Of a stretch of DNA of 64,000 bases, positions 6,854 through 46,218 are shown piece after piece. The position numbers were made by a program, and so were the translations under genes. The stretch spans positions 2,666,001 to 2,730,000 of the forward strand of contig NZ_AP022614.1 of NCBI RefSeq assembly GCF_010730575.1, in the 5' to 3' direction. The DNA is from Mycobacterium parmense. GTDB taxonomy: Bacteria; Actinomycetota; Actinomycetes; Mycobacteriales; Mycobacteriaceae. The stretch's first letter is position 1. Every line of letters begins with the position of its first letter. The notes under the pieces are model-generated. The model was not told where the DNA came from and did no database searches. It saw only the letters and a program-made list of their open reading frames with translations.

Positions 6854-6856
6854 GCT

Positions 6857-7498: not shown

Positions 7499-7518
7499 AT
7501 GTCACCGTTGACGCAAAT

Positions 7519-7534
7519 ATGTCAGATGTGACAT
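7519..7534. promoter_or_regulatory. Putative TetR operator in the TetR/oxidase intergenic region
   Basis: ATGTCA-GATG-TGACAT is a perfect inverted repeat with a 4-bp spacer. A second AATGTCAC (7498-7505) pairs with GTGACATT (7528-7535). A TTGACG (7508-7513) followed 16 bp later by GACATT suggests that the plus-strand promoter overlaps the operator. The regulator is inferred to be the adjacent TetR. Confidence 0.6.
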
Positions 7535-7564
7535 TGTGCCTTTCAGCCGATCGAAGGAGTGGCG

Positions 7565-9139: not shown

Positions 9140-9163
9140 GGGCTGTTGTTGACCGCGAAGTTG

Positions 9164-9183
9164 CATGTACCATTTGGTACATG
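9164..9183. promoter_or_regulatory. 20-bp palindromic operator overlapping a leaderless start codon
   Basis: CATGTACCATTTGGTACATG has perfect 8-bp arms around ATTT, and its last three bases are the ATG of the SRPBCC gene. TACCAT (9168-9173) within it is a TANNNT -10 box 7 nt before that ATG, so the transcript probably begins at the start codon. The TetR encoded as the second gene is the obvious candidate ligand. Confidence 0.7.
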
Positions 9184-10171: not shown

Positions 10172-10201
10172 CGACAGCGCCGAACCATCCTCAACGATGC
10201 C

Positions 10202-10660
10202 TCAGTCTGTGGTGTGGACGATCAGCACGTCGGTCTTGGCCCTGCGGGAGACTTCGGATGGGACTGAGCCCAGCAGCCGCCCGGCGACGCTGCTGAGCCC
10301 GACATTGCCGACGACGAGCAGGTCGGCGGCGACCTCCTCGGCAAGCTGCACCAGCGCATTGATGGGGGCACCGACGATCGGCTTCTCCTCCACGTTCTTG
10401 GCCCCGGCCTGGTGCGCCCGCTCCCTGGCGTTCTGCAGGATCGCGTAGAAGGGGGCCTCGCCCACCGTCCGGTAGTCCTGACCGTGGTCGCTCCCCGGCG
10501 GGATGGCGTAGCGGCCCTTTTCCACCGAGACCGGGGAATGCGCGGTCGCAACGATCAATTTCGCGCCGTGCTCCGCGGCGATCGCGGCTGCGCGGTCCAC
10601 CGCACGCAGCGACGAATCCGAACCATCGGTGCCGACCACGACGGTCTGATAGGCGCTCAT
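10202..10660 (-). CDS. Universal stress protein (TB15.3/Rv1636-like)
   Basis: 152-aa UspA-fold protein, start ATG 10660 behind GGGAGG. It closely resembles Rv1636: SAYQTVVVGTDGSDSS at the N-terminus, ERAHQAGAKNVEEKPIVGAP in the middle, and the nucleotide-loop motif VVGNVGLSSVAGRLLGSVPSEVSRRA at the end. Rv1636 and its relatives are reported to bind cAMP in preference to ATP, so this may buffer cAMP, of interest because two class III cyclases lie in the same window. That link is inference. It differs from Rv1636 by a longer, divergent segment around residues 42-70. Confidence 0.9.
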   Translation of the reverse strand: MSAYQTVVVGTDGSDSSLRAVDRAAAIAAEHGAKLIVATAHSPVSVEKGRYAIPPGSDHGQDYRTVGEAPFYAILQNARERAHQAGAKNVEEKPIVGAPINALVQLAEEVAADLLVVGNVGLSSVAGRLLGSVPSEVSRRAKTDVLIVHTTD

Positions 10661-10712
10661 TTCCCTCCCAGTGTAAATCCCGATGGCTCTGGGAAACGTG
10701 AACTCGTTACGC

Positions 10713-12260
10713 CTACCCGGTGGGGCTCAGGTCCTTGTGACGGCGGCGTACCCCGAAGAACCGGTACTCGTCGCGCTTGACCCCGCGGGTGGCCCGCCAG
10801 TACTGCCACGTGTAGCCGCCCCAGAGCACGGTGTTCCTGCCGTGCTCGTCGAGGTACCAGCTGCTGCAGCCGCCGCTGTTCCACACCGAGTGCGACAGTT
10901 TGCGTTGCAGTTCGTCGTTGAAGGCGTCCTGCGCTTCGCGGGTGGGCGCGAGCGCCTGTGCGCCCATCTTGTCGCAGGTCTTGATCGCGTCGGTGACGTA
11001 GTGGATCTGCGATTCGATCATGAACACCACGGAGTTGTGCCCGAGCCCGGTGTTGGGTCCCAGCAGGAAGAACAGGTTGGGCACGTCGGCGACGGTGATG
11101 CCGCGATGCGCGCCGATGCCCTCGCGGTTCCAGCGATCGACGAGGTCCTCCCCGTGTCGCCCCTTGATCTGGACGTAGGTGTAGGAGTCGGTGACGTGGA
11201 AGCCGGTGGCATAGACGACCACATCCGCCTTGCGTTCCCGGCCGTCGGCGGTGACGATCCCGTCGGGCGTGATGCGGCTGATGGGATCGGTGATCAGGTG
11301 GGTCTTGGGATCCGCGACCGCACCGTAATAGGTGGAGGAGTTCAGGATTCGCTTGCACCCGATCCGGTAATGCGGCGTCAGCTTGCGGCGCAGCTCGCGG
11401 TCCCTCACCGAGCGGCGAATGTTGTATTTGCAGTAGGCCTCGATGAACTTCAGCGCGTTCGGCCGCTTGGTCATGCCAAAGGCCAGCGCCTCCTGGGCCC
11501 AGTAGATCCCCAGGCGCGTCAGCGCGCGCAGCCCGGGGACGTTCTCCATGGCCCGGCGCAGCACCGGCGGGATATCCGGGTTGGAGCGCGGCACCACCCA
11601 CGGCGGGGTGCGCTGGTAGAGCTGCAGCTCGGCGACCTGACCGACGATCTCGGGCACGATCTGAATCGCGCTGGCGCCGGTGCCGATGATCGCCACGCGC
11701 TTGCCGGTCAGGTCGACGCTGTGGTCCCACTCCGCGGAATGGAAAGCGGGACCGGCGAATTCGTCGCGACCCTCGATGTCGGGGAACGACGGGATGTGCA
11801 GCGCGCCCGCGCCGGAGATCAAAAACTGCGCGACGTATTCGCGGCCGTCGGCGGTGAACACGTGCCACCGGTTCTCGTCGTCGTCCCAGTGGGCGCGGTC
11901 GACATGCGAGTTGAACACGATGTAGCGGCGCAGCCCGTACTTGTCGGTGACGCCCTGGAGGTAATCCCAGATCTCGGGCTGGTAGGAGAACGGGTTGCGC
12001 CAGTCCGGCTTGGGCTCGAACGAAAACGAGTACAGGTGTGACGGGATGTCGCAGGCGCAGCCGGGGTAGCTGTTATCCCGCCAGGTGCCCCCGATGTCGC
12101 CGGCCTTCTCCAGGATGACGAAGTCTCGGTCGGTGAAGCCCTGCTTTTGCAGCGCGATCGCCATGCCGAGACCGGAGAAGCCGGTCCCGATGATCAGGGC
12201 CCGGGTGTGCACCGGTTCGCGCGTCTGAGTCGGCTCGACATGTGTCATGGCATCGGTCAC
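10713..12260 (-). CDS. Flavin-containing Baeyer-Villiger-type monooxygenase (Rv3049c)
   Basis: 515-aa class B flavoprotein monooxygenase orthologous to Rv3049c. It uses FAD and NADPH to insert oxygen into ketones or oxygenate similar substrates. Features are FAD Rossmann GTGFSGLGMA (about 25-34), GGTWRDNSYPGCACDIPSHLYSF, the BVMO fingerprint region FAGPAFHSAEWDHS (FxGxxxHxxxW) and the NADPH Rossmann IIGTGASAIQ. The initiating GTG 12260 has AGGAAG about 11 nt upstream. It reads in the same direction as the TetR gene upstream (Rv3050c), separated by 105 bp. The natural substrate is unknown. Confidence 0.92.
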   Translation of the reverse strand: MTDAMTHVEPTQTREPVHTRALIIGTGFSGLGMAIALQKQGFTDRDFVILEKAGDIGGTWRDNSYPGCACDIPSHLYSFSFEPKPDWRNPFSYQPEIWDYLQGVTDKYGLRRYIVFNSHVDRAHWDDDENRWHVFTADGREYVAQFLISGAGALHIPSFPDIEGRDEFAGPAFHSAEWDHSVDLTGKRVAIIGTGASAIQIVPEIVGQVAELQLYQRTPPWVVPRSNPDIPPVLRRAMENVPGLRALTRLGIYWAQEALAFGMTKRPNALKFIEAYCKYNIRRSVRDRELRRKLTPHYRIGCKRILNSSTYYGAVADPKTHLITDPISRITPDGIVTADGRERKADVVVYATGFHVTDSYTYVQIKGRHGEDLVDRWNREGIGAHRGITVADVPNLFFLLGPNTGLGHNSVVFMIESQIHYVTDAIKTCDKMGAQALAPTREAQDAFNDELQRKLSHSVWNSGGCSSWYLDEHGRNTVLWGGYTWQYWRATRGVKRDEYRFFGVRRRHKDLSPTG

Positions 12261-12284
12261 GGTGGATCGGTCTTCCTGTTAGCT

Positions 12285-12312
12285 CCCCCGAATACCTAGT
12301 ACCGAGGGTATC
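12285..12312. promoter_or_regulatory. Imperfect inverted repeat upstream of the monooxygenase
   Basis: The gap between the monooxygenase start and the TetR stop contains ATACC-N10-GGTAT within about 12290-12311, 30-50 bp upstream of the monooxygenase start. It could be the operator of the neighbouring TetR. Arms are only 5 bp, so this is tentative. Confidence 0.3.
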
Positions 12313-12365
12313 GGATGGCACGAGTGTTGACGATCGCCGGACCGATGTCAACGTGCCGAAAGTCC

Positions 12366-13109
12366 TCAGCTGGCGGCGGAGTTGATGGGCACGACGCTGT
12401 GGATCGGCTGGTCGGGATCCATCGAGATGCCCAGCGCCTCAGCGGTGCCGACGATCACCCCGATCATGATCGTGGTCAGGTGCGCGACGAACCGGTCGCG
12501 CGGCATCCGCCGCGGGCTGTCCGCCTCCGGGCCCAGCCACCACTCGGTGGACGACGCGGCGGACCCGAACGCCGCGTGCCCCGCCAGTTCGATCGCGGCG
12601 TGGTCGAGCTCCATCTCGCGCAGCTCGTTGTCGAACATGTCGGCCACGGCCAGGGTGATGCCGCGGCCCTCGTCGAGAATCTGGGGGCTGGCCGCGGACC
12701 GGCCTTCGATGAAGACCCGCAGCACGTTGGGGTGCTCGTCGACGAGGTTGACGTACTCCTCGACGGCGCGGTGGATCACTTCGCGCGCCGAGTCGGTCTT
12801 GAGGTCGATCGAGGAGAAGATCGCCCCCCACAGCATGTCGCGCAGCCGCTCCCCGATCGCCTGGAACAGGTCGGACTTGTCGTGGAAATGCCGGTAGATC
12901 TTCGGCTTGGCGGTGCCGGCCTCCTCGGCGATCTCGCGCACGCTGAGCTCGGGCCCGAGCCGGTCGATCGCGCGGAACGCGGCGTCGACGATCTCGCCGC
13001 GCACCTTCTTGCGGTGTTCGCGCCAGCGCTCGCTGCGCGCGTCGACCTTGACCCCGGGCTTGACGCTGGGGTGCGGCGGTCGCGGAATTCTCACCACATC
13101 AAGCACCAT
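12366..13109 (-). CDS. TetR-family regulator (Rv3050c)
   Basis: 247-aa TetR protein, the Rv3050c orthologue. A basic N-terminal extension (IPRPPHPSVKPGVKVDARSERWREHRKK) precedes the DNA-binding domain, whose helix-turn-helix is LSVREIAEEAGTAKPKIYRHFHDKSDLFQA (about 55-84). The C-terminal domain contains EGRSAASPQILDEGRG. It sits between nrdE and the monooxygenase, transcribed with the latter, and is the probable regulator of that gene. The ATG at 13109 is the longest start; internal GTGs exist. Confidence 0.88.
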   Translation of the reverse strand: MVLDVVRIPRPPHPSVKPGVKVDARSERWREHRKKVRGEIVDAAFRAIDRLGPELSVREIAEEAGTAKPKIYRHFHDKSDLFQAIGERLRDMLWGAIFSSIDLKTDSAREVIHRAVEEYVNLVDEHPNVLRVFIEGRSAASPQILDEGRGITLAVADMFDNELREMELDHAAIELAGHAAFGSAASSTEWWLGPEADSPRRMPRDRFVAHLTTIMIGVIVGTAEALGISMDPDQPIHSVVPINSAAS

Positions 13110-13164
13110 ACCGCGCAGGACCCGCTGACCTGGGCGGACTGGCGCTCCCGCGGCGGGACCGCCT

Positions 13165-13228
13165 TCGCCGAGCGTGCACTGGTTGCGAAAAACAACCCCA
13201 AAATTCGCAATGAATGCACGTTCGGCGA
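13165..13228. repeat. Extended intergenic palindrome downstream of nrdE
   Basis: TCGCCGAGCGTGCA (13165-13178) pairs with TGCACGTTCGGCGA (13215-13228) with one mismatch in 14. Inside, TTGCGAA pairs with TTCGCAA. The 64-bp element lies 13 bp beyond the nrdE stop. It resembles palindromes with GAGCGTGCA-type ends that I recall as recurrent between mycobacterial genes. It may terminate the nrdHIE transcript. Confidence 0.6.
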
Positions 13229-13241
13229 GATGTCGAGCCGC

Positions 13242-15407
13242 CTACAGCATGCAGGAGACGCAGCCTTCGACCTCGGTGCCCTCCAGGGCCATCTGCCGCA
13301 GCCGGATGTAGTACAGCGTCTTGATGCCCTTGCGCCAGGCATAGATCTGCGCCTTGTTCACGTCGCGGGTGGTGGCCGTGTCCTTGAAGAACAGCGTCAG
13401 CGAGAGCCCCTGGTCCACGTGCTGGGTGGCCGCCGCGTAGGTGTCGATGATCTTCTCGTAGCCGATCTCGTAGGCGTCCTGGTAGTACTCCAGGTTGTCG
13501 TTGGTCATGTAGGGCGCCGGGTAGTAGACCCGTCCGATCTTGCCCTCCTTGCGAATCTCGATCCGGGACACGATCGGGTGGATCGACGACGTCGAATGGT
13601 TGATGTAGGAGATCGACCCGGTCGGCGGCACCGCCTGCAGGTTCTGGTTGTAGATGCCGTGCGCCTGGACCGACTCCTTGAGCCGCTTCCAGTCGTCCTG
13701 GGTCGGGATCCGGATCTCGGCGTCGGCGAAGAGCTGACGCACCTTCGGGGTCGCCGGCTCCCACACCTGGTCGGTGTACTTGTCGAAGAACTCCCCCGAC
13801 GCATACTTGGACCGCTCGAAACCCTTGAAACGCGAACCGCGTTCGATGGCGATGCGATTCGAGGCGCGCAGGGCGTGGTAGAGCACCGTGTAGAAGTAGA
13901 TGTTGGTGAAGTCGATGCCTTCCTCGGACCCGTAGAAGACGCCCTCGCGAGCCAGGTACCCGTGCAGGTTCATCTGCCCGAGCCCGATCGCGTGGGAGTC
14001 GTTGTTGCCCTGCTCGATTGATGGCACCGACGTGATGTGCGTCTGGTCGCTCACCGCGGTCAGCGCGCGGATGGCCACCTCGATGGTCTGGGCGAAGTCC
14101 GGCGAGTCCATGGCCTTGGCGATGTTCAGCGACCCGAGGTTGCAGGAAATGTCCTTGCCCACGTGGGCGTACGACAGGTCCTCGTTGAACCGCGACGGCG
14201 TGGACACCTGCAGGATCTCCGAGCACAGGTTCGAGTGGGTGATCTTGCCCTCGATGGGATTGGCCCGGTTCACCGTGTCCTCGTACATGATGTACGGGTA
14301 GCCGGACTCGAACTGCAGCTCGGCCAGCGTCTGGAAGAACTCGCGCGCCTTGATCTTGGTCTTGCGGATGCGCGCGTCGTCGACCATCTCGTAGTACTTC
14401 TCGGTCACCGAGATGTCGGCGAACGGAACCCCGTAGACGCGCTCGACGTCGTACGGCGAGAACAGGTACATGTCCTCGTTGCGCTTGGCCAGCTCGAAGG
14501 TGATGTCGGGGATCACGACCCCGAGGCTCAGCGTCTTGATCCGGATCTTCTCGTCGGCGTTCTCCCGCTTGGTGTCCAGGAAGCGGTAGATGTCGGGGTG
14601 GTGCGCGTGCAGGTACACCGCGCCGGCGCCCTGGCGTGCCCCGAGCTGGTTGGCGTAGGAGAAGGAGTCCTCGAGCAGCTTCATGATCGGGATGACGCCC
14701 GAGGACTGGTTCTCGATGTTCTTGATCGGGGCGCCGTGCTCGCGAATGTTGCTCAGCAGCAACGCGACCCCCCCGCCACGCTTGGACAGCTGCAGCGCCG
14801 AGTTGATGGAACGCCCGATGGACTCCATGTTGTCCTCGATGCGCAGCAGGAAGCAGGACACCGGTTCGCCGCGCTGCTTCTTTCCCGAGTTCAAGAAGGT
14901 CGGGGTGGCCGGCTGGAACCGCCCGTCGATGATCTCGTCGACGAGCTTCTCGGCAAGCACGGTGTCGCCGGCGGCCAGCGTCAGCGCGACCATCACGACG
15001 CGGTCCTCGAAACGCTCCAGGTAGCGCTTCCCGTCGAAGGTCTTCAGCGTGTAGGAGGTGTAGTACTTGAACGCGCCGAGGAACGTCGGGAACCGGAATT
15101 TCTTGGCGTAGGCGCGGTCCAGCAGCGTCTTGACGAAGTTGCGGCTGTACTGGTCGAGCACCTCACGCTCGTAGTAGTTCTCCTTGATCAGGTAGTCGAG
15201 TTTCTCGTCCTGGTTGTGGAAGAACACCGTGTTCTGGTTGACGTGCTGCAGGAAGTACTGATGAGCGGCCTCGCGGTCCTTGTCGAACTGAATCTTGCCG
15301 TCGGCGTCATACAGATTCAGCATCGCGTTGAGCGCGTGGTAGTCCGTCTCCCCCGGTAGCGCGTGGGCGCCGGACGTTACAGGCTCTGCAGTGACGGTTG
15401 GTGGCAC
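13242..15407 (-). CDS. nrdE: Class Ib ribonucleotide reductase alpha subunit NrdE
   Basis: 721-aa catalytic subunit of the NrdEF reductase. Visible motifs are the substrate-site [17 protein letters not shown], active-site [26 protein letters not shown] with [18 protein letters not shown], and the C-terminal redox pair CVSCML, which is re-reduced by NrdH. The GTG at 15405-15407 has GGAAGG about 8-13 nt upstream. The start overlaps the end of nrdI by 31 bp, so translation is likely coupled. Last gene of nrdH-nrdI-nrdE (Rv3053c-Rv3051c), under the NrdR boxes at 16333-16380. Confidence 0.97.
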
Positions 15408-34746: not shown

Positions 34747-36270
34747 ATGCGAGTCGGTATCGACTTTGGCACCACCCACACCGTCGTCGCCGCCGTCGAC
34801 CGGGGCAACTATCCGGTCGTCTGTTTCGACGGGCTCGACGCCTGGCCGTCGGTCATCGCCGGCAACGCGGCCGGCGAGTTGCGCTACGGCGCCGACGCGG
34901 CGGCCGTCCGCCACGAGCCGGGATGGTCGGTGCTGCGGTCCTTCAAGCGCCTCCTCAACGACGCGGGACCGCAAACCGAGGTGAACCTGGCCGGCCGCCG
35001 GCACCGGCTGACCGACCTGCTCACCGGGTTTCTCGCGGCGCTCAAGCGCGACCTCGTCGCGCGCTCCAACGCCGGCCTGCCGGTCGGTGAGACCGTCGAG
35101 GCCGCGATCAGCGTGCCGGCCAACGCCTCGAGCGCCCAGCGCCTGCTCACCCTGGATGCCTTCGTGGCGGCGGGTTTCCACGTCGTCGCGCTGCTCAACG
35201 AGCCGTCCGCGGCGAGCCTGGAGTACGCACACCGGTACCGCTCCACCATCACCGCCAAGCGCGAGTACGTCCTCGTCTACGACCTGGGCGGCGGCACCTT
35301 CGACGCCTCGCTGCTGAAGATGACCGGGCATGCCCACGAGGTCGTCGTCAGCGAGGGCATCCAGCGCCTCGGCGGCGACGATTTCGACGAGGCGATTCTG
35401 GACCTGGTGACGACCCGGTCCGGCCTGCGTGGGCTCGACACCGCCGCGCGCGACCTGCTGAGGGAGGAGTGCGCCGCGCGCAAGGAGTCGGTCGGCCCGC
35501 AGACGCGCCGCTTCCTGGTGGACCTCACCGGCGTGGACGGGGCCGACCGGCCGCCGTTCGCCTGCCCGGTCGACGACGTCTACGCGGCGTGCGCGCCGCT
35601 GGTCGACAAGACCATGCAATTGCTCGAGCGGGTCCTGCACGATCCCAGCGGCAGGGACGTGACGTGGTCGGAGGTGGCCGGCATCTATGTGGTGGGCGGC
35701 GCGGGCAGCTTCCCGCTCGTGTCGCGGATGCTTCGCACCACCTTCGGCGAGAAGCGCGTGAAGCGCTCGCCCCATCCCTTCGCGGCCACGGCGATCGGTC
35801 TGGCCGTCTTCCTCGACAGCGAGGCCGATTTCGCGCTGTCCGAACGCTTCTCGCGCAACTTCGGGGTGTTTCGCGAGGCGGAGGCCGGCGCCGGCGTCGT
35901 CTTCGACCCGATTGTGTGCAAGGACGTGTCCCTCCCCGCCGACGGGCAGACCCCCCTGGTGGTCAAGCGGACCTATCGCGCCGCGCACAACATCGGGCAT
36001 TTCCGGTTCGTGGAATGCAGCCGCCTGGTCAACGGCCGGCCCGACGGCGACGTGACGCCCTACGACCCGGTCCTGTTCCCGTTCGACCCGGCCCTGCGCG
36101 ACCGCGACGACCTCGGGCGCCAGCCCGTCGGCCGGTGGAAGGACGGCCCCGACGTCGAGGAGCGCTACGTCATCACCCCGAGCGGCACGGTCGAGGTGAC
36201 GCTGACGACGCGGCCCGCCGGCTTCGAGCGCACCTTCCGGCTGGAACGCCGGGCCCCCGCCGGCGTGTAG
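34747..36270 (+). CDS. Hsp70-family actin-fold ATPase, atypical C-terminus
   Basis: 507-aa protein with a complete Hsp70 nucleotide-binding domain: phosphate-1 GIDFGTTHTVVAAVD (about 4-18), VEAAISVPANASSAQR, NEPSAASLEYA, phosphate-2 LVYDLGGGTFDASLLK (about 177-192) and adenosine motif YVVGGAGSFPLVSRML (about 315-330). The C-terminal ~150 residues form a short beta-rich segment rather than the usual substrate-binding domain plus helical lid, so it is not DnaK. No DnaJ or GrpE is near. It starts the rightward side of the accessory island, followed 9 bp later by the nitroreductase. Client unknown. Confidence 0.88.
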   Translation: MRVGIDFGTTHTVVAAVDRGNYPVVCFDGLDAWPSVIAGNAAGELRYGADAAAVRHEPGWSVLRSFKRLLNDAGPQTEVNLAGRRHRLTDLLTGFLAALKRDLVARSNAGLPVGETVEAAISVPANASSAQRLLTLDAFVAAGFHVVALLNEPSAASLEYAHRYRSTITAKREYVLVYDLGGGTFDASLLKMTGHAHEVVVSEGIQRLGGDDFDEAILDLVTTRSGLRGLDTAARDLLREECAARKESVGPQTRRFLVDLTGVDGADRPPFACPVDDVYAACAPLVDKTMQLLERVLHDPSGRDVTWSEVAGIYVVGGAGSFPLVSRMLRTTFGEKRVKRSPHPFAATAIGLAVFLDSEADFALSERFSRNFGVFREAEAGAGVVFDPIVCKDVSLPADGQTPLVVKRTYRAAHNIGHFRFVECSRLVNGRPDGDVTPYDPVLFPFDPALRDRDDLGRQPVGRWKDGPDVEERYVITPSGTVEVTLTTRPAGFERTFRLERRAPAGV

Positions 36271-36990: not shown

Positions 36991-37163
36991 TCAGCCCCGC
37001 AGCTGCGGCAGCACGTCTCGCTGGTACGCCGCGAAGAAACCGTCCATGTGACGCTCTCGGCGACCTTCTCCGGCGCCACCTGCGGCATGAGTGCGCCGAA
37101 GTCTTTGGGGCGCGGCAGGATCTGCGAGCTCTGCCCGGGCAGGGCCTCGTTGGGCGCCGTCAC
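36991..37163 (-). pseudogene. Relic of an F420-dependent LLM-class oxidoreductase (C-terminal fragments)
   Basis: Read from 37163, one frame gives NEALPGQSSQILPRPKDFGALMPQVAPEKVAES, and a second frame then gives MDGFFAAYQRDVLPQLRG and a stop at 36991-36993. Both pieces match the C-terminal region of G6PDH-like F420-dependent luciferase-family oxidoreductases (TIGR03557 type). Roughly 30 residues between them (the part around GPD...IGPDQ) and about 230 N-terminal residues are missing. The relic starts in a GTGA overlap with the FAD gene stop, probably by chance. It marks a deletion or insertion boundary. Confidence 0.6.
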
Positions 37164-39199
37164 GGCAGATAGTAGCCGCGGATGCCGTAGTGGCGGCCGC
37201 GGCCGAGCAGGACGTTGGCGGCCTGCAATCCGGAGCGCACGGCCGCCTCGATGCACCCGGCGTTCATGCCGCAGTCCGTCCAGTCGCCCGCCAGCACCAG
37301 GTTGTCGTAGCCGCTTTCGTCGGGCCTCAGCCGGTAGCGGTCCGAGCCGGGCACGGATTGCACGTAGCGGTCGGACGGGTCGATGTTCACGCTGACATGC
37401 TGGCCGGCGAGCAGGTGCCACGCAAAACCCCCGTCGCCGACCGCGTCGGGAAACCACAGTCCCACATCGCGATTCAGGAACTTGACGGCGTCGGCGCGAA
37501 CCTGCTCGTCGTAGCGGCGGACGTAGCCGGCCGGGTCATCCTCGACGGGCCAGGGCGCGTCGAGACTGCCGCAGAAGTAGGCGACGGTGCGCGCCGGGTC
37601 GTCGTGGGGCCACTGCTCGGCCCACAGCGTCTGCCCCATCGACGCCCACGTCTCGAACGGCGGGAGGTAGGCGCTGGTCGTCACCGCGGGCTTGCCGCGC
37701 CAGCCCAGCGACGCCTCGTCGCACCGCAGCCAGATCTGCAACGCCTGGGTGGCGACGGTGCGCACATGGGTGGTCATGTCACGCCACTCGGGCCGGTCGT
37801 CGACGAGTTCCCGCGCGACGATGTCGAGCATTCCCAGGGAGACGGCCAGCACGACGTGGTCGAAGTCGGCGCCGCGGCGCAGCACCCTGGTCTCGGCGTC
37901 AGCCGCACCGCCCCAATGTGTTTCGAGTGCCCGCCAGTCACGGACCGGCTCGGAGACCGACAGCTGGTCGACGAGCGGGCGGGCGGGAAACACCGGAAGT
38001 CCCCGCACCTCGGTGAGCGGCTCGTAGCGTTGTGTGCCGTCGGCGAGCCGGACCTGCCGGCCCATGGTGATCGACTCGATGCCGCGGCGCTGCGCGTCCA
38101 GATGCAATCCGTCGAGGCGGTGGAAGAACTCGAACTGCACGCCGCGCTGCCGCAGGGCCTGGTAGAGCGGGGCGATGACGACGTCGCCCATGCCCGCCGT
38201 CATCTTCCAGAACACCGCACCCTTGTATTCGAACAGGACGAGGCCGGTGAGGAAGACGGCCAGGCCGGCGCCGAAAGCCGGCCGGGCCGGATCGGCGTCC
38301 TCGTAGCCGAACACCAGGTCGTAGAGGCCGCGAATCAGCGGGAATTCCAACACGTCCGGGTGCCCACCGTGGCGCAGCAGCCACGCCCCGAAGTCTTCGT
38401 CGTTGATCGCCCGGAACCCGCGGGGGTCGGTGATCAGCTTGTCGGCGACGATCCCCCGGGCCGTCGCGGTCACCAGAGACATCAGCAGCCAGGCGCGCTT
38501 GTGGGCCGGGCGCCGTTCGTAGTCGAGCGCGCCGCGGATGGCGTCGAGGACGGCGCCGAGCAGGTCGGTCGCCGCCGCGCCGGCCGGCGGCGCCTCGGTC
38601 AGGGCCAGCAGCGCGGCCAGCGCGCCGCGCCGCACGGCCTCGGCGGCATCGTTGCCGGCGGGCGGATCCGGTGAGGTGGACAAGGCGAGGCCGTCGGCGG
38701 GTACGCCGCGCAGGGACTCGGCGAAGTCGACGAGCAGGTCGAGCGCGCGCCGCAGGAATCCCACCGCCGTCATCTCACGACCGCTGCTGCCCGGCTCGCC
38801 CGGCAGCTCGTCGTTGCGGGTGAAGGTGCCCAGCCAGACCAGCCACTCGGTGCCCCAGCGCTCGGCCAGGCCGAGGTTGTCGGCGGGGATCAACGCCTGG
38901 TCCCAGGTTTGCACCGGCGCCGCCGGATCGGTTCGCGCCCTGTCTAATTCGGCGTAGCACTGGCGAAGCAACGCGAACGCGTTCTCGTAGGAGCCCAGCC
39001 AGATGTGCAGGCCGTGCTCTTCGATGCGCCCGTGGGCGCCGCGGCTCGAGGCCGCCTTGCCGCCCAGGCGCCAGCCGCGCTGGTAGACGGTGATGGACTC
39101 GAATCGCCCGCGCCAGCCCGGCTCGCTGAGCCGCCACGCCGCGGCGAGCCCGGCCATGCCGCCACCCAGGATCGCGACGCGGCCCTTGCTGCGGCTCAC
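37160..39199 (-). CDS. Large FAD/NAD(P)-binding oxidoreductase (amine oxidase/phytoene desaturase superfamily)
   Basis: 679-aa flavoprotein. The N-terminal nucleotide-binding motif is GRVAILGGGMAGLAAAWRLSE (about 6-26), followed by YQRGWRLGGKAASSRG and HGLHIWLGSYENAFALL. The C-terminal flavin motif is LAGDWTDCGMNAGCIEAAVRSGLQAANVLLG (about 635-665). The layout is that of desaturase/hydroxysqualene-dehydroxylase-like enzymes of isoprenoid metabolism, in keeping with the polyprenyl synthase of the same module, but the substrate is unproven. GTG 39199 is fixed by its GTGA overlap with the upstream stop. It is the last intact gene of the leftward operon. Confidence 0.85.
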   Translation of the reverse strand: MSRSKGRVAILGGGMAGLAAAWRLSEPGWRGRFESITVYQRGWRLGGKAASSRGAHGRIEEHGLHIWLGSYENAFALLRQCYAELDRARTDPAAPVQTWDQALIPADNLGLAERWGTEWLVWLGTFTRNDELPGEPGSSGREMTAVGFLRRALDLLVDFAESLRGVPADGLALSTSPDPPAGNDAAEAVRRGALAALLALTEAPPAGAAATDLLGAVLDAIRGALDYERRPAHKRAWLLMSLVTATARGIVADKLITDPRGFRAINDEDFGAWLLRHGGHPDVLEFPLIRGLYDLVFGYEDADPARPAFGAGLAVFLTGLVLFEYKGAVFWKMTAGMGDVVIAPLYQALRQRGVQFEFFHRLDGLHLDAQRRGIESITMGRQVRLADGTQRYEPLTEVRGLPVFPARPLVDQLSVSEPVRDWRALETHWGGAADAETRVLRRGADFDHVVLAVSLGMLDIVARELVDDRPEWRDMTTHVRTVATQALQIWLRCDEASLGWRGKPAVTTSAYLPPFETWASMGQTLWAEQWPHDDPARTVAYFCGSLDAPWPVEDDPAGYVRRYDEQVRADAVKFLNRDVGLWFPDAVGDGGFAWHLLAGQHVSVNIDPSDRYVQSVPGSDRYRLRPDESGYDNLVLAGDWTDCGMNAGCIEAAVRSGLQAANVLLGRGRHYGIRGYYLP

Positions 39200-42100
39200 G
39201 CGAGCAACGCCCGCGCGCGCGCCAAGTCCGGCCATGCGCCATCGGCGGGGAAGCGGGACACGCTGTCGCGCAAAGCTTCCCGTGCCACCTCGCCGCAAAG
39301 CTCGAAATACTCTATAGCGCAGCGTATTTCGAATATCGTGGCGTGCTGCTCGCGCGCCAGTTCGATGGCCGCCCACAACTGGGCGTGCCGTTGCGCCGGG
39401 TCGCGGTGAGTGTGCGCGAGGATGCGCAACAGCTCCGCGTCATAGCAGTGCATGCCGGTGTTCTGCGCCAGCGCCAGCGCGGTGACGAGCCGCTCCCGGG
39501 CCTCGGCCGGTTGGCCGGCGGCAAGCAGCAGGCGCGCGAGCACGCCGTCGTAGAACGTGATCATCGACTGCAGGCCGATCTCCCGCCAGGCATCGACGAT
39601 GCCGGTCACCGTTGCGATGTGGCCGCGCAACGCATCTCGGTCGGCGGGGCGTGCCGTCATGGCCCGCAGTGCGTCGACGACGGCTTGCTGGGCCAGGCCG
39701 AGCGCCACCCAGGAGTCGAGGCCGTGGGCCCGGGCGTCGGTGACCAGGGCGGCGGCCACGGCGGCGGCGCGGTCGAGATCGCCGGCGTCGACGCGCATCA
39801 GCACCTCCATCTGCCTTGCGTACGCCAGGCTGAACGGGCCCTGCGGCAGACCGATGGATGCGCACCGCGGCACGCATTCGGCCAACTCGTCCTCCGCACC
39901 GCGCAGATCGCCCTGGACGAAGCGCGCCAGTGCGAGATGGGTGTGCATCGATGCGATCGGATCGGTCGCCATGAACCAGGCCGCCATGACTTCCCGGCGC
40001 ACGTTGCGCCGGTGCGAGGCGGCCGCTTCCAGCTTCTCCCGGGCCAGGTCGAATTCGCCTCGATACCAGGCGAGCATCCCGAATCCGGCCGTCAGGGTGG
40101 GCCATTGCGTCGACTGCCCCTTGACGATGCCCGCGTCGATCGCCTGCAGCACCTGATGCGCGTGGCGCAGGTCGGCCCGGATCACGTAATGCCCCCACAG
40201 CGCGGTCAGTATCGAGAACAGGTCGTCGGTGATCTCCGTCCCCCGCAGCTGCAGGCAACGTTTGAAGTCGGCGGCGGCATTCTGGCTCACCGCACCCTCG
40301 GCCGCATAGAACAGGAAGCCACGCCGCAGGCGCAGCGCGATCTCACGGTTGTTGCGGTCGGGACCGACGGGCAGGCATTCGATCTGCGAAATCGCCTGTC
40401 CCAGATAGGAAAGGGCTTCTGCAAGGGCACCCCTGCGGCGGGCCGCCTTCGATGCCTTCTGATAGGCCGTCGCCGCCGCTTCGTAGCGCTGCGCGCCTTC
40501 GTAGTGGCTGGCGATCAGCGGCCAGTCGGCGATCGCGTCGGACGTCGACGCCAGCAGCGCGTCGGCGACCCGTCCGTGCATCCGGCGACGCAGCGTCGGC
40601 GGCGAGAGTTCGGCGGCGATGTCGCGAAGGAGTTCGTGGCGGAATCGCCAGGCGTCCTGCCCCACCGGTTCGAGAACCCGCCCCTTGCAGAGCTCGTCGG
40701 TCGCGCAATCCAGTTCCGCGCCGTCGATTTCGACCGCCGCGGCCAGCAGACGGCGGTCGATGACGTCGCCGACCACCGCGGCGCCTTCGACCACGCGGAC
40801 CGCGTGATGGGACCGCAGCCGCGCAAACAGTGCCTCGTACAGCGAGTCGGGGACGTGGGCAAAGTCCGCGGCGTCGGCGGGTTGCTCCCTGAGCTTGGCG
40901 ACGACCTCCTCGATGAACAGCGGCAGCCCGTCGCAGCGCCGGCGCACCGCCCGGCGCCCCTCCTCGCCCAGTTCGGGAAAGAGCGCGGCGATCAGCTCCT
41001 CGCTCTGCGGATCCGACAGCGGCGCCAGCGCGAAGTGGGCGACACGCGGCCCGGCCGGCAGGGATTCGACTGCGCGACTGGTCATCACGACCAGGAGCCG
41101 GCCGGATTCGTCGTCGAGCAGCGCCTCGACCACCCCGGTGGTGTCCTCGTCGAACCAGTGCATGTCGTCGGCGACGAAGAGCGCGGGGCCGGCGCCGAGG
41201 CGGGCGCGCAGATATTCGAGCACCGCGCGAGTGACCCGCCGATACAGCTTGGCGCCGTCGGTTTCGGCCGCCTCGTAACCCGCGTCGGGGGAGATCCCCA
41301 ACACCGGCGCCAGCAGCGGCACGATGCTCGCCGGGTCCAGGCCGCTCCCGGCGACCTCGGCGGTCAGGCGGGCGACGACCTCGGTCTGCGGTGTGTCGCG
41401 ATCGATCCCGCAGCGGCGTTCGAGCAGCCGGCGCACCGGATGCAGGCCGACATCGGTGTGCAGTGGCGAACCGGCCAGCTCGATCACCACGGACCGCGAC
41501 GCCTCCGCCTGTTCCACGGCCGCGGCCGCCAGCCGGCTCTTGCCTATGCCGGCCTCCCCGCTGATGGCCAGCCCCACGGCATCCAGCGTCCCCGCGCGGG
41601 CCCGCTCCCAGCAGTCCGCGAGATACGCCAGTTCGCGCTCGCGCCCCACAACCAGCCGGTGGGACGCGCGCGCTGCGTCAGCCCGCTCGCCCAGGACCTG
41701 CGAGTGCTCGACCGGTCCCGAGATACCCTTCACCAGTTGAGGTTTCAGGCGCTTGAAAGCGAAGTGCTTGCCCGTGATCCGTTCGACCGCGGACGAGACG
41801 ACGACACCCCCCGGCGGGGCCAGACCCGAAACCCGCGCCGCCAGGTTGGCGGCCAGTCCGTAGACGTCGTCTTGTTGCAGGTCGAGGTAGACCACCCCGC
41901 GATGCACGCCGACGCGGACCGCGACCGTGAAGCCGAACCGGCGCTGGATCCGTTCGCTGAGGCTCGCGACGTCGCGCGCGATATCGAGGCCCGCGAGCAC
42001 CGCCCGCCGCGCGTCGTCCTCGTGCGCCCTGGGGTGACCGAAGACGATCAGCAGCCCGTCGCCCTTGATCGAGGCCACGTGTCCCTCGTAGCGGTCGACG

Positions 42101-42393
42101 ATCTGGCGAACCTGCTCCTTGTAGCGGCCGACGGCGGCGCGATAGGTCTCGGGCTCGACCCGGGTGGACAGCGCGGTGGAATCGACGAGATCGACGAACA
42201 TGATGGTCAGCCGGCGGATCTCGCCATGGTCGGAGGGCGCGGAGAGCAGCCCCTCGGCGTCGGCGTTGCCGTGGTCGATGGCCAGCACCTGCTCGGCGAG
42301 GTCTCGAGCCGCGGTGCGTTCCCCCCGGCTGATGGCCTCGAACGCCCTGTCAAGCAGCTCGTCGATCGACAGCCGGGGCTGGTCGTCGCTCAC
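39196..42393 (-). CDS. Class III cyclase - P-loop ATPase - helical repeat sensor protein
   Basis: 1065-aa multidomain protein. After a short helical N-terminus, about residues 50-235 form a class III cyclase domain: FVDLVDSTALSTRVEPE and KGDGLLIVFGHP carry the two metal Asp, and YGLAANLAARVSGLAPPG the Asn and Arg. A STAND-type ATPase follows: VGRERELAYL, Walker A SGEAGIGKSRLAAAA (about 305-319), Walker B ALFVADDMHWFDED. The last ~450 residues are TPR-like helical repeats. Both start (GTG 42393) and stop overlap neighbours by 4 bp. Such proteins couple ligand or partner sensing to cAMP output; catalysis is possible from the residues present but unproven. Confidence 0.9.
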   Translation of the reverse strand: MSDDQPRLSIDELLDRAFEAISRGERTAARDLAEQVLAIDHGNADAEGLLSAPSDHGEIRRLTIMFVDLVDSTALSTRVEPETYRAAVGRYKEQVRQIVDRYEGHVASIKGDGLLIVFGHPRAHEDDARRAVLAGLDIARDVASLSERIQRRFGFTVAVRVGVHRGVVYLDLQQDDVYGLAANLAARVSGLAPPGGVVVSSAVERITGKHFAFKRLKPQLVKGISGPVEHSQVLGERADAARASHRLVVGRERELAYLADCWERARAGTLDAVGLAISGEAGIGKSRLAAAAVEQAEASRSVVIELAGSPLHTDVGLHPVRRLLERRCGIDRDTPQTEVVARLTAEVAGSGLDPASIVPLLAPVLGISPDAGYEAAETDGAKLYRRVTRAVLEYLRARLGAGPALFVADDMHWFDEDTTGVVEALLDDESGRLLVVMTSRAVESLPAGPRVAHFALAPLSDPQSEELIAALFPELGEEGRRAVRRRCDGLPLFIEEVVAKLREQPADAADFAHVPDSLYEALFARLRSHHAVRVVEGAAVVGDVIDRRLLAAAVEIDGAELDCATDELCKGRVLEPVGQDAWRFRHELLRDIAAELSPPTLRRRMHGRVADALLASTSDAIADWPLIASHYEGAQRYEAAATAYQKASKAARRRGALAEALSYLGQAISQIECLPVGPDRNNREIALRLRRGFLFYAAEGAVSQNAAADFKRCLQLRGTEITDDLFSILTALWGHYVIRADLRHAHQVLQAIDAGIVKGQSTQWPTLTAGFGMLAWYRGEFDLAREKLEAAASHRRNVRREVMAAWFMATDPIASMHTHLALARFVQGDLRGAEDELAECVPRCASIGLPQGPFSLAYARQMEVLMRVDAGDLDRAAAVAAALVTDARAHGLDSWVALGLAQQAVVDALRAMTARPADRDALRGHIATVTGIVDAWREIGLQSMITFYDGVLARLLLAAGQPAEARERLVTALALAQNTGMHCYDAELLRILAHTHRDPAQRHAQLWAAIELAREQHATIFEIRCAIEYFELCGEVAREALRDSVSRFPADGAWPDLARARALLA

Positions 42394-42923
42394 AGCTCGA
42401 CGGTGACCAAGCGATCGACGTAACTCGCGGGGACCAGGTTGCCGGTCAGCGTCGTCAGCCGAACCGTTCCCGTGTAGCTGGCGCCCATGTACCGGGCGTC
42501 GAGGAGGCGGACGGAGAACGACGTCGCGCCGGCCGCCAGGACGTTGGTGGGGTGGAATGCGATCTTGGAGTCGGGAATGCCGACTTGCCCACCCACCTGC
42601 GTGAACTGCTGTTGGATCGACAGCTGGCGCGAGTAGCCCGGATCGGCCGCAACGTGAATCGGGCCGCTGGGTTGCAACCCGCACGCCGCCTCCTGCGTAG
42701 GCGCCGTGGTGCCGCAGCCGTGGGCCACCGCGGTCCGGAAGTGGCTGGCCGAACCGCGCGCGACGATGTCGAAGAACTTGACCATCGACCGGCCCCAGGC
42801 CTCGCACCCGAACGTGCCGGCGTCGATCTGCGCTACCGCGTCGTCGGCGAGGAGCCGAGCCTGCGCGACGGCCGCGTTCGTGGTCGCGGTGAATTGCCGT
42901 ACCGTATCGGGTGATTCGCTCAT
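42390..42923 (-). CDS. Unknown protein with helical N-terminus and beta-sandwich-like C-terminus (177 aa)
   Basis: I do not recognise a family. Residues about 1-85 are predicted helical and alanine-rich: VRQFTATTNAAVAQARLLADDAVAQID, then CEAWGRSMVKFFDIVARGSASHF. Residues about 95-177 look like a beta-sandwich: QLSIQQQFTQVGGQVGIPDSKIAFHPTNV, TSFSVRLLDARYMGASYTGTVRL, ending VDRLVTVEL. No signal peptide. ATG 42923 overlaps the upstream stop (ATGA), and its own stop overlaps the cyclase start (GTGA), so it is stoichiometrically tied to both neighbours. The architecture parallels the 225-aa protein on the other arm of the module. Confidence 0.75.
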   Translation of the reverse strand: MSESPDTVRQFTATTNAAVAQARLLADDAVAQIDAGTFGCEAWGRSMVKFFDIVARGSASHFRTAVAHGCGTTAPTQEAACGLQPSGPIHVAADPGYSRQLSIQQQFTQVGGQVGIPDSKIAFHPTNVLAAGATSFSVRLLDARYMGASYTGTVRLTTLTGNLVPASYVDRLVTVEL

Positions 42924-44410
42924 GTGTCGCCTCCGCCCTGGACGGGGCCCGCGCCCGGCGCGGTCGCGGGCAACTGGGCAAGCCTCGCCAGGAACCGCCA
43001 CGGTTCGCTGGCCATCCGCGCGCCGAATTTGGCGCTGAACGTGACGAGATCGTCGACGGTGAGGTCCTTGTCGGCGAACTTCGCCGCGAGCGCGGCGCTC
43101 TGGTTGGCGGTTTCCGCGAGGTATTCCGACATCATGCTGACCGCCAGTCCGGCCGCCGTCTTCGGGACGGCGCCGCCCGAGGCACCGGCGGTGGCCGCGG
43201 CAGGCTTCGCGGCCTCCTCCTTTCGGGCCGCTGGGGGCGGCAGCACCGCCTCGGCGCCGCCCTGGGGCGCCGAGAAAAAGCTCTGCATCGCCTGGTTGTT
43301 CGTCAGCGGCGCGGGCGGATCGGCCCACGCGACCAGGTTCGGCGGCGGATTCTTGGCGTGGCCCAGCAGCATTTCCGCCGCGGCCTGCCCGTACCCCATG
43401 ACGCAGACGAAGATCTTCTGGGCGATCGGCCACAGCGTCTTGATGTGCACGACTTTCCTGGTGGTGACGGTCACGCCGGCGCTCGGGTTCGCCGCCGTCC
43501 CCGTGACGACCTTGAGCCAGCCCTTGTCGACAGTGACCTGACCGTCGCCCCCGTTGGGGTTCGCGCCGCTGAGGTCGTATTGCACGACGGCCCCGTCGGA
43601 GTACTGCGCCTTGAAGAACCGCAGGTCGGTCCTCAGCTCCGGCATTCCCGAACCGCACCAGGCGCCCACCGTCTCGAGAACATGTCCCCAGTTCTCATAA
43701 GGGATGGCCGGCGCCGGATCCGGGGGGCTGGTGAGACCGTCCATGCTGCAGAAGAACTCACCGGCCGTCTTGTCCCAGTTGCGCGGATCGAGGATCGCTT
43801 CCACCTGGCCTACGGTCAGCGAATCGTCGTCGAACGTTGTGTCGACGACGACGCACTCGACGCCGTCCTGGGTCGTCAGACACGCGTTGCAGAGCGGCAC
43901 GCGGGCAACCATGGGATCGAGGCATCCGAGCTCCAGCGCGTAGGCGATGGCTTTGTTCCAGTCCCGTCCGGCATGGAAGTGCGCCAGCAGCACATCGAAC
44001 AGTTGGCGCGCCGGGTCGGGCTGTTGTCTCACGTAGCCGGGGATCGTCTCTGTTTGCGGGACGGCCAGGCCGAGCCCTTGCACGTACTGGTCCGGCCCGA
44101 TTCCGACCAGGCCCGGCACGTGCATGAGCGCTCCGAGAATGTACACCAGCCGCGACACCTGTGGCACGCTCAGCGGCGCCGCGTCCGTGAGGGCAAGCAA
44201 CGCATCATCGACAGGCGGGAACTGGCGCTGAAGAAAGTCCTCGAGATTGCCCGACCAGCCCCGCTGGCCTTCTCCGGTGCTGCCGGGGAGATAGCCCTCG
44301 ACGATCGGCGCGACGTGCGGATTCGAGGATGCCGTTACGGCCTTGTCGAGCGCGGCGTAAAGGGCGAGCAGGTTGTACAACCGTCCGGGAGATCGTGCCG
44401 GTTCCGTCAT
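42920..44410 (-). CDS. Unknown 496-aa protein, possible START-like core and helical tail
   Basis: No family recognised. The N-terminal ~170 residues are helical (SPGRLYNLLALYAALDKAV, RDWNKAIAYALELGC). The middle (about 170-350) has a Cys pair PLCNACLTTQDGVEC and a strand-rich stretch VVDTTFDDDSLTVGQVEAILDPRNWDK...LRFFKAQYSDGAVVQYDLSG...VTVTTRKVVHIKTLW that reads like a SRPBCC/START fold. After an Ala/Pro-rich linker (about 390-425) a helical tail ends WRFLARLAQLPATAP. It is the first gene of the leftward four-gene operon; the ATG at 44410 faces the shared promoter. Confidence 0.75.
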   Translation of the reverse strand: MTEPARSPGRLYNLLALYAALDKAVTASSNPHVAPIVEGYLPGSTGEGQRGWSGNLEDFLQRQFPPVDDALLALTDAAPLSVPQVSRLVYILGALMHVPGLVGIGPDQYVQGLGLAVPQTETIPGYVRQQPDPARQLFDVLLAHFHAGRDWNKAIAYALELGCLDPMVARVPLCNACLTTQDGVECVVVDTTFDDDSLTVGQVEAILDPRNWDKTAGEFFCSMDGLTSPPDPAPAIPYENWGHVLETVGAWCGSGMPELRTDLRFFKAQYSDGAVVQYDLSGANPNGGDGQVTVDKGWLKVVTGTAANPSAGVTVTTRKVVHIKTLWPIAQKIFVCVMGYGQAAAEMLLGHAKNPPPNLVAWADPPAPLTNNQAMQSFFSAPQGGAEAVLPPPAARKEEAAKPAAATAGASGGAVPKTAAGLAVSMMSEYLAETANQSAALAAKFADKDLTVDDLVTFSAKFGARMASEPWRFLARLAQLPATAPGAGPVQGGGDT

Positions 44411-44438
44411 CAGGCCTCCAGCCCCCCGTTTGCGCAGC

Positions 44439-44465
44439 TAGCATACCCTGTTGCGGGTGTGTATG
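44439..44465. promoter_or_regulatory. Bidirectional promoter of the six-gene module
   Basis: TAGCAT on the plus strand (44439-44444) and TATGCT on the minus strand (44445-44440) are overlapping TANNNT boxes pointing outward in both directions. The imperfect inverted repeat CATACCC...GGGTGTGTATG (44442-44465) covers them, so one regulator could control both arms. Confidence 0.45.
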
Positions 44466-44491
44466 GCGTGCCGGTGCGGAGGAAAATTCAC

Positions 44492-45169
44492 GTGAACGAC
44501 GGCGTCACCAACGACGGTACGATCAGCGACTTACCCTGGGTGAGCGTGTTCGATCCGGTCGCCAATGCCCGTGCATTGACCGCCATCCAGGCAAGGGGTT
44601 TCTCGGCGGCGACACAACTCGTCGACCGATTCGTCCGGATCGCCGAATCGGCGGCCACCGGCGGGGCTGCGGAGTCCGCGGGCAGCAAAGCGGAAACGAC
44701 CGCTGCGGTCGGTGCCGGCGGCGATGTGGACGCGATGCTGACCGCGTGGTGGTCGATGTTCGGCCGGCTGCTCCGGTCGATGCCCGGGGCGGCCGCCCTG
44801 CGCGGCGACGGGGCTGCGTTCGACTTCGCGGGCCGAAGCGCCGAGGGCGGTGTGCGCCTGACCGCGGACGGCAGCGGCGTGGCCGCCGCGGAGGTGTGGC
44901 TGCACAACCGCGGCGCCGAGGACATCGATTCGGTCGCGCTAAGGTGCGGTGATTTGCTCGCGCACGACGGCACCTCGGTGAGCTCCGCCGCCGTGCGGTT
45001 CTCCCCCGAGCGGCTCGCGCTGCCCGGCCGGTCGAGCCGCGGCGTGACAATCGAGGTCGAAGTGGCGCCCTGCGCGGCGCCGGGCTGTTACCGCGGAACC
45101 CTGCTCGCCGAGGGATATCCCGATCTGTGGCTGCCGGTGACGCTGACGCTGCGGGCCCCGGCCGGATGA
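44492..45169 (+). CDS. Unknown 225-aa protein with helical N-terminus and Ig-like C-terminus
   Basis: No named family recognised. Residues about 1-115 are helical: SVFDPVANARALTAIQARGFSAATQLVDRFVRIAE and DAMLTAWWSMFGRLLRSMPG. Residues about 130-225 form an Ig-like beta-sandwich: VAAAEVWLHNRGAEDIDSVALRC, VRFSPERLALPGRSSRGVTIEVEVAP, GCYRGTLLAEGYPDLWLPVTLTLRAP, the pattern of bacterial Ig-like or NEW3-type domains. The GTG at 44492 follows GGAGG. No export signal. The stop overlaps the polyprenyl synthase start (ATGA). Confidence 0.78.
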   Translation: MNDGVTNDGTISDLPWVSVFDPVANARALTAIQARGFSAATQLVDRFVRIAESAATGGAAESAGSKAETTAAVGAGGDVDAMLTAWWSMFGRLLRSMPGAAALRGDGAAFDFAGRSAEGGVRLTADGSGVAAAEVWLHNRGAEDIDSVALRCGDLLAHDGTSVSSAAVRFSPERLALPGRSSRGVTIEVEVAPCAAPGCYRGTLLAEGYPDLWLPVTLTLRAPAG

Positions 45170-46218
45170 CCACCGCCGCCGACGCGACGGAACTTGCCGC
45201 GGCCGTGGAGGACCGGTTGCGCGAGGTCGCGCGCAGCGTGCGCCGGTCGATGCTCGACGCCATGCCCGACGGCGAGCCCGTTGCCTGGCTCTACGGTCCG
45301 ATGCGCGATTACCCGTCGCGGCCCGGCAAGGCGTTGCGGCCCGCGCTGTGCCTGTCGGCCGGCCGCGCGTTCGGGGGGAACCCCGACGACCTACTGGGCA
45401 TAGCCGTCGCAATCGAGTTGTTGCACAACGCTTTCCTGGTGCACGACGACATCGCCGACGGCAGCGAGATGCGCCGCGGGCGCCCCACCCTGGCGGCCGC
45501 ACACGGTCTGGCGGTGGCCCTCAACGCCGGGGACGGCCTGGCGATCGTGGCGAACCAGGTGCTGCGCCGGGCGGCCCGTCGCCTCGACCGCGACCTCGCC
45601 GACCTCGTGCTGGCGGAGTTCGACACGATGGCCATGCGCACTCTCGAAGGCCAGGCCACCGAGGCCGGCTGGCAGGCCGACGATGTCGAGAGCCTGGGCC
45701 CGGAGGATTACCTCGAGCTGATCATGCACAAAACCTGCTGGTACACCACGATTCACCCGCTGCGGGTGGGGGCGATGGTGGGTTCGGGCGGCACCGCCGA
45801 CCTGGATCCCCTGGTCCGCTTCGGCTTCCACTTCGGGGCGGCATTCCAGATCCGCGACGACCTGCTGAACCTGATCGGCGACGAGCGGGTGTACGGCAAA
45901 GAGATCCTCGGCGACCTCTACGAGGGGAAGCGGACGCTGGCCCTGGTGCACCTGGCCGCGACCGCACGGGGCGAGGACCGCACCGTGCTGAAGGATTATT
46001 TGCGCAGGACGCGGGTCCAGCGTTCGGAAGTACTCGTTCGGACCATTCGAGCGTTGATGGACGACTACGGCAGCATCGCTTTCACCCGCGAGTACGCCGA
46101 GGGCATCCTGCTGGTCGCCGAGCAGTGTTTCGAGCGGGCCTTCGCGCAGGCGCGACCGGGACCTGATCTGGATTTCCTGCGCGCGCTGGTGCCCTACGTC
46201 TGGGCGCGCTGGCGCTGA
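45166..46218 (+). CDS. E-type polyprenyl diphosphate synthase (GGPP synthase-like)
   Basis: 350-aa trans-isoprenyl diphosphate synthase. The first Asp-rich motif is in [19 protein letters not shown] (about 97-115), and the second region reads [32 protein letters not shown] (about 228-259), where the usual DDxxD is DDLLN. It should condense isopentenyl diphosphate with allylic diphosphates to a C15-C25 product; chain length cannot be read safely. The ATG overlaps the upstream stop. It may feed the FAD oxidoreductase of the divergent arm. Confidence 0.9.

Follow-up and report, generated by a model that had tools for sequence, protein, structure and literature searches.

Six linked mycobacterial genes that may tie lipid chemistry to an intracellular chemical signal

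What do six closely packed genes of Mycobacterium parmense do together, three of them encoding a prenyl diphosphate synthase, a flavoenzyme and a fusion of a cyclase with an ATPase, and the other three encoding proteins of no recognised family? The genes lie in a window of 64,000 nucleotides (the whole stretch of DNA that was analysed: contig NZ_AP022614.1, positions 2,666,001 to 2,730,000) from a 5.95-Mb genome (G000), where six open reading frames (ORFs) occupy 37160-46218 as two divergent operons. The flavoenzyme is called FAD here, the cyclase-ATPase CYC, the prenyl synthase PPS, and the three unrecognised proteins U496, U178 and U225; the minus-strand run has the order U496, U178, CYC, FAD and the plus-strand run U225, PPS (Table 1). 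A sequence-only reading of the window had listed these components, and Pfam bore the list out with Guanylate_cyc and AAA_16 in CYC, Amino_oxidase in FAD and polyprenyl_synt in PPS. Our analysis showed that the six genes are kept together as a heritable unit, and they may form an undescribed system that ties lipid chemistry to an intracellular chemical signal.

Table 1. Positions, in the window, of the genes and domains of the six-gene locus and of the region between its two runs
Feature	Position	Strand	Remarks
FAD flavoenzyme gene	37160-39199	-	679 aa
CYC cyclase-ATPase gene	39196-42393	-	1065 aa
CYC AAA_16/STAND-type ATPase domain	41086-41652	-	Pfam AAA_16 above cut-off
CYC class III cyclase domain	41725-42219	-	Pfam Guanylate_cyc above cut-off, 60.7 bits
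U178 gene	42390-42923	-	177 aa
U496 gene	42920-44410	-	496 aa
Intergenic region between divergent runs	44411-44491	no strand	81 bp, from gene coordinates
U225 gene	44492-45169	+	candidate scaffold
PPS prenyl synthase gene	45166-46218	+	350 aa

Failure of the genes to co-occur in other genomes had been set beforehand as the result that would count against a module. Genome-wide searches were made for FAD, U496 and U225, and CYC, PPS and U178 were checked in fetched neighbourhoods. U496 was found in 24 of 98 genomes of the genus (E ≤ 1e-3), and a separate search with a FAD profile (E ≤ 1e-50) again returned 24 of the 98, with an identical list; the U225 profile (E ≤ 1e-10) found 23 of the same 24 and missed only G070, where U225 is unseen because the contig begins inside U496. 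The three proteins are therefore all-or-none in the genus, and the module passed this check. At the level of the family, FAD was present in 6 of 251 genomes, all of the same genus. Neighbourhoods were fetched for 20 of the other 23 module genomes and then for two more (L150 and L151), with G041, split over contigs, left out. In the first 20, FAD, CYC and U496 were present in 20/20, and PPS and U225 in 19/20, missing only in a cut contig; U178 was recovered from these loci (L013-L032) in 9/20 by tblastn and in 20/20 with an iterated hidden Markov model. Over all 92 fetched loci (L013-L104, a set that also takes in distant relatives, cut contigs, eight unrelated loci and some duplicates), all six genes were recognised by profile in 66, at scores above 60 bits (above 25 for U178) and with L088 excluded by hand. 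A contig scan with the FAD alignment yielded 72 loci, eight of which (L097-L104) held only distant flavoproteins and were used as controls, and in a contig scan with U496 alone none of 45 pattern matches was confirmed as a relative. The genes keep one order, apart from an exchange of FAD and CYC in a few loci (L028, L030, L053, L066 and L071), and among the mycobacterial loci (L013-L082, L084-L086, L089 and L090) PPS is missing only at stretches cut by contig ends (L024, L035, L045, L051 and L075). The association of the six genes is thus far beyond chance. Two genes, the U496 of L150 (G087) and the PPS of L027 (G009), seem broken by frame changes, which could be decay or assembly error.

The junctions within the locus are conserved to different degrees. 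All same-strand neighbours were earlier said to overlap by 4 bp, and the four overlaps were found at the positions claimed. Removal of loci with identical C-terminal 400 residues of the FAD protein left 56 non-redundant loci, and an in-frame start codon stands at the same position in 52/56 of these for the U225-PPS overlap, in 51/56 for CYC-FAD (four differ in order), in 40/56 for U178-CYC and in 35/56 for U496-U178. The tight stoichiometry that had been read from the overlaps may hold. As for the region shared by the two runs, their divergence was confirmed and its length corrected, from 82 to 81 bp, and the overlapping outward -10 boxes proposed there were not supported by a sigma-70 consensus scan of 44300-44600, which is blind to -10-only promoters and gave 0 promoter-like sites. 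The surroundings were compared as 2.5-kb flanks of the 56 loci and the window, in single-linkage groups that may over-merge: the FAD-side flanks formed ten sequence groups (35, 11, 3, 2 and six singles; 57 flanks) and the PPS-side flanks fourteen (56 flanks). The ten different settings on the FAD side mean that the cassette occupies several genomic sites. On a quick tree of FAD and PPS, five site labels need eight changes, where the minimum is four and shuffles average 20.7; 13 of 54 inner branches of this tree are weak, and the six single sites share one label, so that the true number of changes may be higher. The flanks of the window had no blastn match among the flanks of the other loci, and its wider surroundings are common to very few of them.

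The motifs of both enzymes are intact. PPS is an E-type short-chain prenyl diphosphate synthase, as assigned by its family profile (Pfam polyprenyl_synt, 188.5 bits) together with both Asp-rich motifs, the first (DD..D) present in 57/57 alignment rows and the second (DD..N) in 56/57; among solved relatives, 1wmw, a geranylgeranyl diphosphate synthetase, scores best. FAD is a large flavoenzyme of the amine-oxidase/HpnE-desaturase superfamily (Pfam Amino_oxidase, 60.7 bits), with the motifs GGGMAG (as G.G..G) in 55/57 rows, EEHGLH in 55/57 and AGDWTD in 54/57, and its family profile found no relative in the PDB at E ≤ 1e-5. Its best NCBIfam matches are the desaturase-dehydroxylases HpnE, CrtP and CrtQ, with HpnE (TIGR03467) first at 94 bits, far below the cut-off of 283. 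This match and the family and motifs of PPS support the isoprenoid link that the sequence-only reading had drawn. FAD differs from HpnE in that it shows no association with a squalene or phytoene synthase: PF00494 was found in 18/24 module genomes vs 54/74 without the module, and a branch derived from such a synthase was dropped as a candidate.

CYC joins a class III cyclase domain to an AAA_16/STAND-type ATPase domain and weak TPR-type repeats (Pfam TPR_12, below cut-off). Its catalytic domain, metal Asp residues and N...R pair make it a class III cyclase; the first metal Asp, GDG and N...R are present in 57/57 rows, and Walker A/B are retained in the 21 mycobacterial rows inspected. CYC thus shares a cyclase, AAA_16 and helical repeats with STAND/MalT-like AAA_16 proteins and with the TOMM kinase/cyclase fusions of TIGR03903. 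It scores 308 bits to the latter model vs a cut-off of 706 and differs from these fusions in that no kinase domain was found in CYC and no TOMM gene was recognised among the six.

None of four libraries (Pfam, NCBIfam, PADLOC and PHROGs) gave U496, U178 or U225 a family match above cut-off, in agreement with their earlier description as unrecognised; a match of these proteins to well-described families with unrelated roles was the second result set beforehand against a module, and it did not appear. The U496 family numbered 46 proteins by phmmer, the window protein included; a scan of 31 rows of its alignment gave nothing credible (best E 0.014, in one row), and its comparison with solved structures gave no notable match (best E 0.09). 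The look of its central region had suggested a START/SRPBCC lipid carrier, which hhalign rejected (0.1-0.2% vs 99.5% for a positive control). U225 has a conserved, helical-looking N-terminal segment and a C-terminal Ig-like region in its alignment, with a weak match to the Ig-like N-terminal domain of GH123 in 18/20 rows (best E 6.4e-5), and in L113, a distant locus, U225 and PPS form one fused protein. Two further candidates were set aside, namely a FAD-U225 fusion in L145, which has an unresolved residue at the junction, and kinship of U178 with U225, for which a single comparison over 49 columns gave a probability of 18% and E 0.0013. Mean pairwise identity over 57 rows was 78% for PPS, 66% for FAD, 53% for CYC, 46% for U225, 31% for U496 and 27% for U178, and the last two are fast-evolving. 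L053, L074 and L075 carry further copies of the two as a pair, the U178 copies being only 24-36% alike, and the two are fused in L022 and in one of the L074 copies; one duplicated pair in L053 sits between PPS and U225. Given the intact enzyme motifs, the U225-PPS fusion and the co-duplication of U496 and U178, the data suggest that the module is split into an enzyme half (PPS, U225 and FAD) and a recognition half (U496, U178 and CYC).

Relatives of the core occur well beyond the genus. In these searches the best few candidates per genome were scored, hence the counts are lower bounds: FAD was found in at least 4/296 genomes of the phylum (two of them of the same genus), in at least 9/296 genomes of the class of an acidimicrobial relative and in at least 5/398 genomes from the phylum of a Granulosicoccus relative, those relatives included, in at least 1/24 genomes of the class to which G282 belongs, G282 being the one, and in at least 11 plasmid records, eight of them from Azospirillum and one with a coverage of 80% or more of the query. 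Among 25 distant FAD loci, profiles recognised PPS in 11, a U225-like gene in 8 and a U496-like gene in 5. L113, L144 and L145, from distant Actinomycetota, have U496, CYC, FAD, U225 and PPS co-directional in that order, and L088 has the module in the mycobacterial layout; no module surrounds a PPS match in Kitasatospora (L116). Of the 25 distant loci, 18 have a gene for an AAA_16-type ATPase no more than 9 kb from FAD, vs 0/9 controls, the controls being eight regions around other flavoproteins (two shorter than 6 kb) and one around a PPS. The AAA profile was built with 11 of the 18 distant sequences, which match by construction, and the matches outside it are seven (L083, L094, L110, L112, L114, L140 and L146). 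The output beside AAA_16 varies, from a cyclase alone to a protein kinase with histidine-kinase parts in Azospirillum (L110 and L140), a kinase with GAF and cyclase in Rufibacter (L112), and BTAD with a weak cyclase match in L147. The recurrence of the FAD-AAA_16 neighbourhood across phyla, with differing outputs, suggests that what the ATPase reads is made or handled by the flavoenzyme.

Several of these distant loci had other features. L110, L140 and L112 encode very large kinase-AAA_16-GAF proteins near a FAD-family flavoenzyme in other phyla, and CRP/FNR-type genes were noticed, without a systematic count, near the cyclase in L109, L113, L142 and L143. In L115, a Ruegeria sp. AD91A plasmid, positions 4851-13481 hold together a CYC-type cyclase-ATPase, a family 1 encapsulin, DUF3237, a flavoprotein, PPS and a U225-like gene (21.8 bits). 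The flavoprotein is of another amine-oxidase type (16.5 bits to the FAD profile), and the locus is possibly a nanocompartment version of the module.

Our best reading, which we hold tentatively and on sequence evidence, is that of a regulated, self-contained isoprenoid-processing module or complex. PPS would make a short-chain (~C15-C25) prenyl diphosphate and the FAD enzyme would oxidise the prenyl or a prenyl-derived chain, with U225 as the putative scaffold holding the two together. The fast-evolving U496-U178 pair would set substrate or ligand specificity and dock to the AAA_16/TPR part of CYC; that part, when loaded, would drive the cyclase, and the cyclic nucleotide would tell a CRP-type regulator how the pathway stands. 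Counting for this reading are the shared occurrence of the genes, the fall in identity from PPS to U178, the duplication and fusion of U496 with U178, the U225-PPS fusion, the one-direction operons of L113, L144 and L145, the AAA_16 genes close to distant FAD genes, the retained motifs of PPS and CYC, and the CRP/FNR-type genes noticed at four cyclases. In this account we infer chain length, lipid substrate, docking, the direction of signalling and cyclase activity; that the cyclase may read an assembly or ligand state had been proposed from the window earlier, for which the AAA_16 genes at FAD across phyla, with their varied outputs, count indirectly, and against which L076, with no cyclase, counts. 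If true, the account would describe one heritable unit, its core related to loci of several phyla, in which a STAND-type ATPase connects isoprenoid chemistry with signalling by cyclic nucleotides or kinases. It would also give three protein families of no assigned function a defined context and a set of 'hypothetical' genes in many mycobacteria a common setting, and the ligand read by STAND-type ATPases would become testable.

A number of observations weigh against this reading. The isoprenoid need not be the substrate of FAD, because PPS is present in only 11/25 distant loci, and AAA_16 is not seen at 7/25, two of which are cut by contig ends. In L076 (Mycolicibacterium sp. CH28, 6196-12061) PPS, U225, U496, U178 and FAD are present and an uncut stretch shows no CYC up to 10 kb from FAD; the cyclase has therefore been dispensable, and the enzyme half able to persist without it, at least once. 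The purine-specifying lysine of class III cyclases, which we take to stand usually three residues before GDG, is replaced by S, N or W in 21 rows of CYC, and a lysine immediately precedes GDG in 56/57 rows. Distant homologues also deviate, with L109 lacking the N, L095 having D instead of N, and L147 lacking the metal and N/R residues. None of the six genes encodes a CRP. In a 19-residue hydropathy scan the peak is 1.64 for FAD and U496, close to where a membrane segment is customarily called, and lower for the other four proteins, so that the solubility of FAD and U496 is uncertain. Finally, partial distance correlations, which share phylogeny and are hence hints only, count both for and against the reading. 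They were highest for U178-U496 (0.43), followed by U178-CYC (0.39), FAD-U225 (0.36), FAD-CYC (0.35), CYC-PPS (0.35), U225-PPS (0.32), U225-U496 (0.31) and U496-CYC (0.28), and those of CYC-PPS, FAD-CYC and U225-U496 cross the proposed halves.

The alternative that survives best, a possible if somewhat unlikely one, is a terpenoid or meroterpenoid gene cluster in which PPS and FAD would produce a natural product under the control of CYC, an ordinary pathway regulator, and U496, U178 and U225 would serve in binding or tailoring. It would account for a PPS alongside a desaturase-like flavoenzyme, for the patchy distribution and for the missing CYC of L076, and in L092 and L139 the core stands with acetoacetate-decarboxylase-like and saccharopine-dehydrogenase-like genes, with a P450-like gene, by eye, in L139. 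However, the six proteins include no recognised terpene cyclase, transporter or additional tailoring enzyme, and the module stays constant while its surroundings change. An acetoacetate-decarboxylase-like gene was also noticed near FAD in L147.

A second formulation, which strikes us as rather doubtful, is a new kind of bacterial lipid sensing by a relocating cassette, in which an Ig-like scaffold holds synthase and flavoenzyme and the rapidly diversifying U496-U178 recognition pair couples them to the STAND-type ATPase. The lipid product or its chemical state would become an intracellular alarm, and the output of the ATPase would differ between phyla (cyclase, protein kinase, histidine kinase or transcriptional activator).

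Unlikely, in our judgement, is a biological-conflict system in which U496/U178 or the ATPase recognises an invader, the cyclase amplifies and PPS and FAD act on membranes or lipids. A patchy presence (24/98) at several genomic sites, the fast-evolving and duplicated U496-U178 pair, the STAND-like ATPase and weak PycC matches are as such a system would have them. The PADLOC matches are nevertheless limited to the generic cyclase domain of CYC, with none for the other five proteins and no known effector, and the neighbours identified by Pfam in the window are CstA, HSP70, nitroreductase, thiolase, CoA-transferase and acyl-CoA dehydrogenase; a defence assignment on the PADLOC matches was rejected. 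The module resembles the Pycsar anti-phage cyclases in these matches and differs from them in its fused STAND-type ATPase, its metabolic partners and the absence of an effector recognised by PADLOC among the six proteins.

We consider quite improbable a redox-signalling pair in which the flavoprotein serves the STAND-type protein as its sensor and to which the prenyl synthase was added later. No pairing in the distant loci is wider than FAD with AAA_16, often without PPS, but PPS is the most conserved protein of the module, its mycobacterial absences are confined to contig-cut loci, and it is CYC, not PPS, that is missing in L076. A chance neighbourhood of unrelated genes can be dismissed in view of the identical 24-genome sets and an order conserved at different genomic sites.

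The module was also compared with further known systems. According to PMC8346489, the shells of family 2B encapsulins carry cNMP domains, and their polyprenyl-transferase cargo has a disordered N-terminus of 50-100 residues. PPS is like this cargo in that its best NCBIfam match is the encapsulin-cargo synthase NF041169. Unlike it, PPS has no long disordered N-terminus (the family match starts at residue 12 of 350 by NCBIfam or 40 by Pfam) and stays below the NF041169 cut-off; at 181.4 vs 450 bits its membership was rejected, though the Ruegeria relative has a shell gene. No match to a shell (HK97 fold) was found among the six proteins with Pfam and NCBIfam profiles. Terpenoid/prenyl clusters like that for gromomycin (PMC13010261) resemble the module in having a polyprenyl synthetase and, in one strain, a flavoenzyme, whereas the module has no recognised prenyltransferase or triterpene cyclase and a signalling ATPase is its usual partner. 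No description of the module was found in searches of the openly accessible PMC literature, a scope outside which most subscription papers and bioRxiv preprints lie, or in the available parts of PMC8346489, PMC13010261 and PMC2447327; this is in line with the earlier statement that the combination matched no described pathway.

Among the neighbouring genes, a saccharopine-dehydrogenase-like one was tried as a seventh member and rejected, being present in 18/56 loci only and ~29% identical to those at distant modules. At 34747-36270 of the window an HSP70-type ORF adjoins the nitroreductase, and the 908-aa ORF opposite is probably a shadow. An EccB-like gene (type VII secretion, by eye; e.g., L018, 12532-13872) lies near the module in 28/56 loci, and therefore one common site borders an ESX-type gene.

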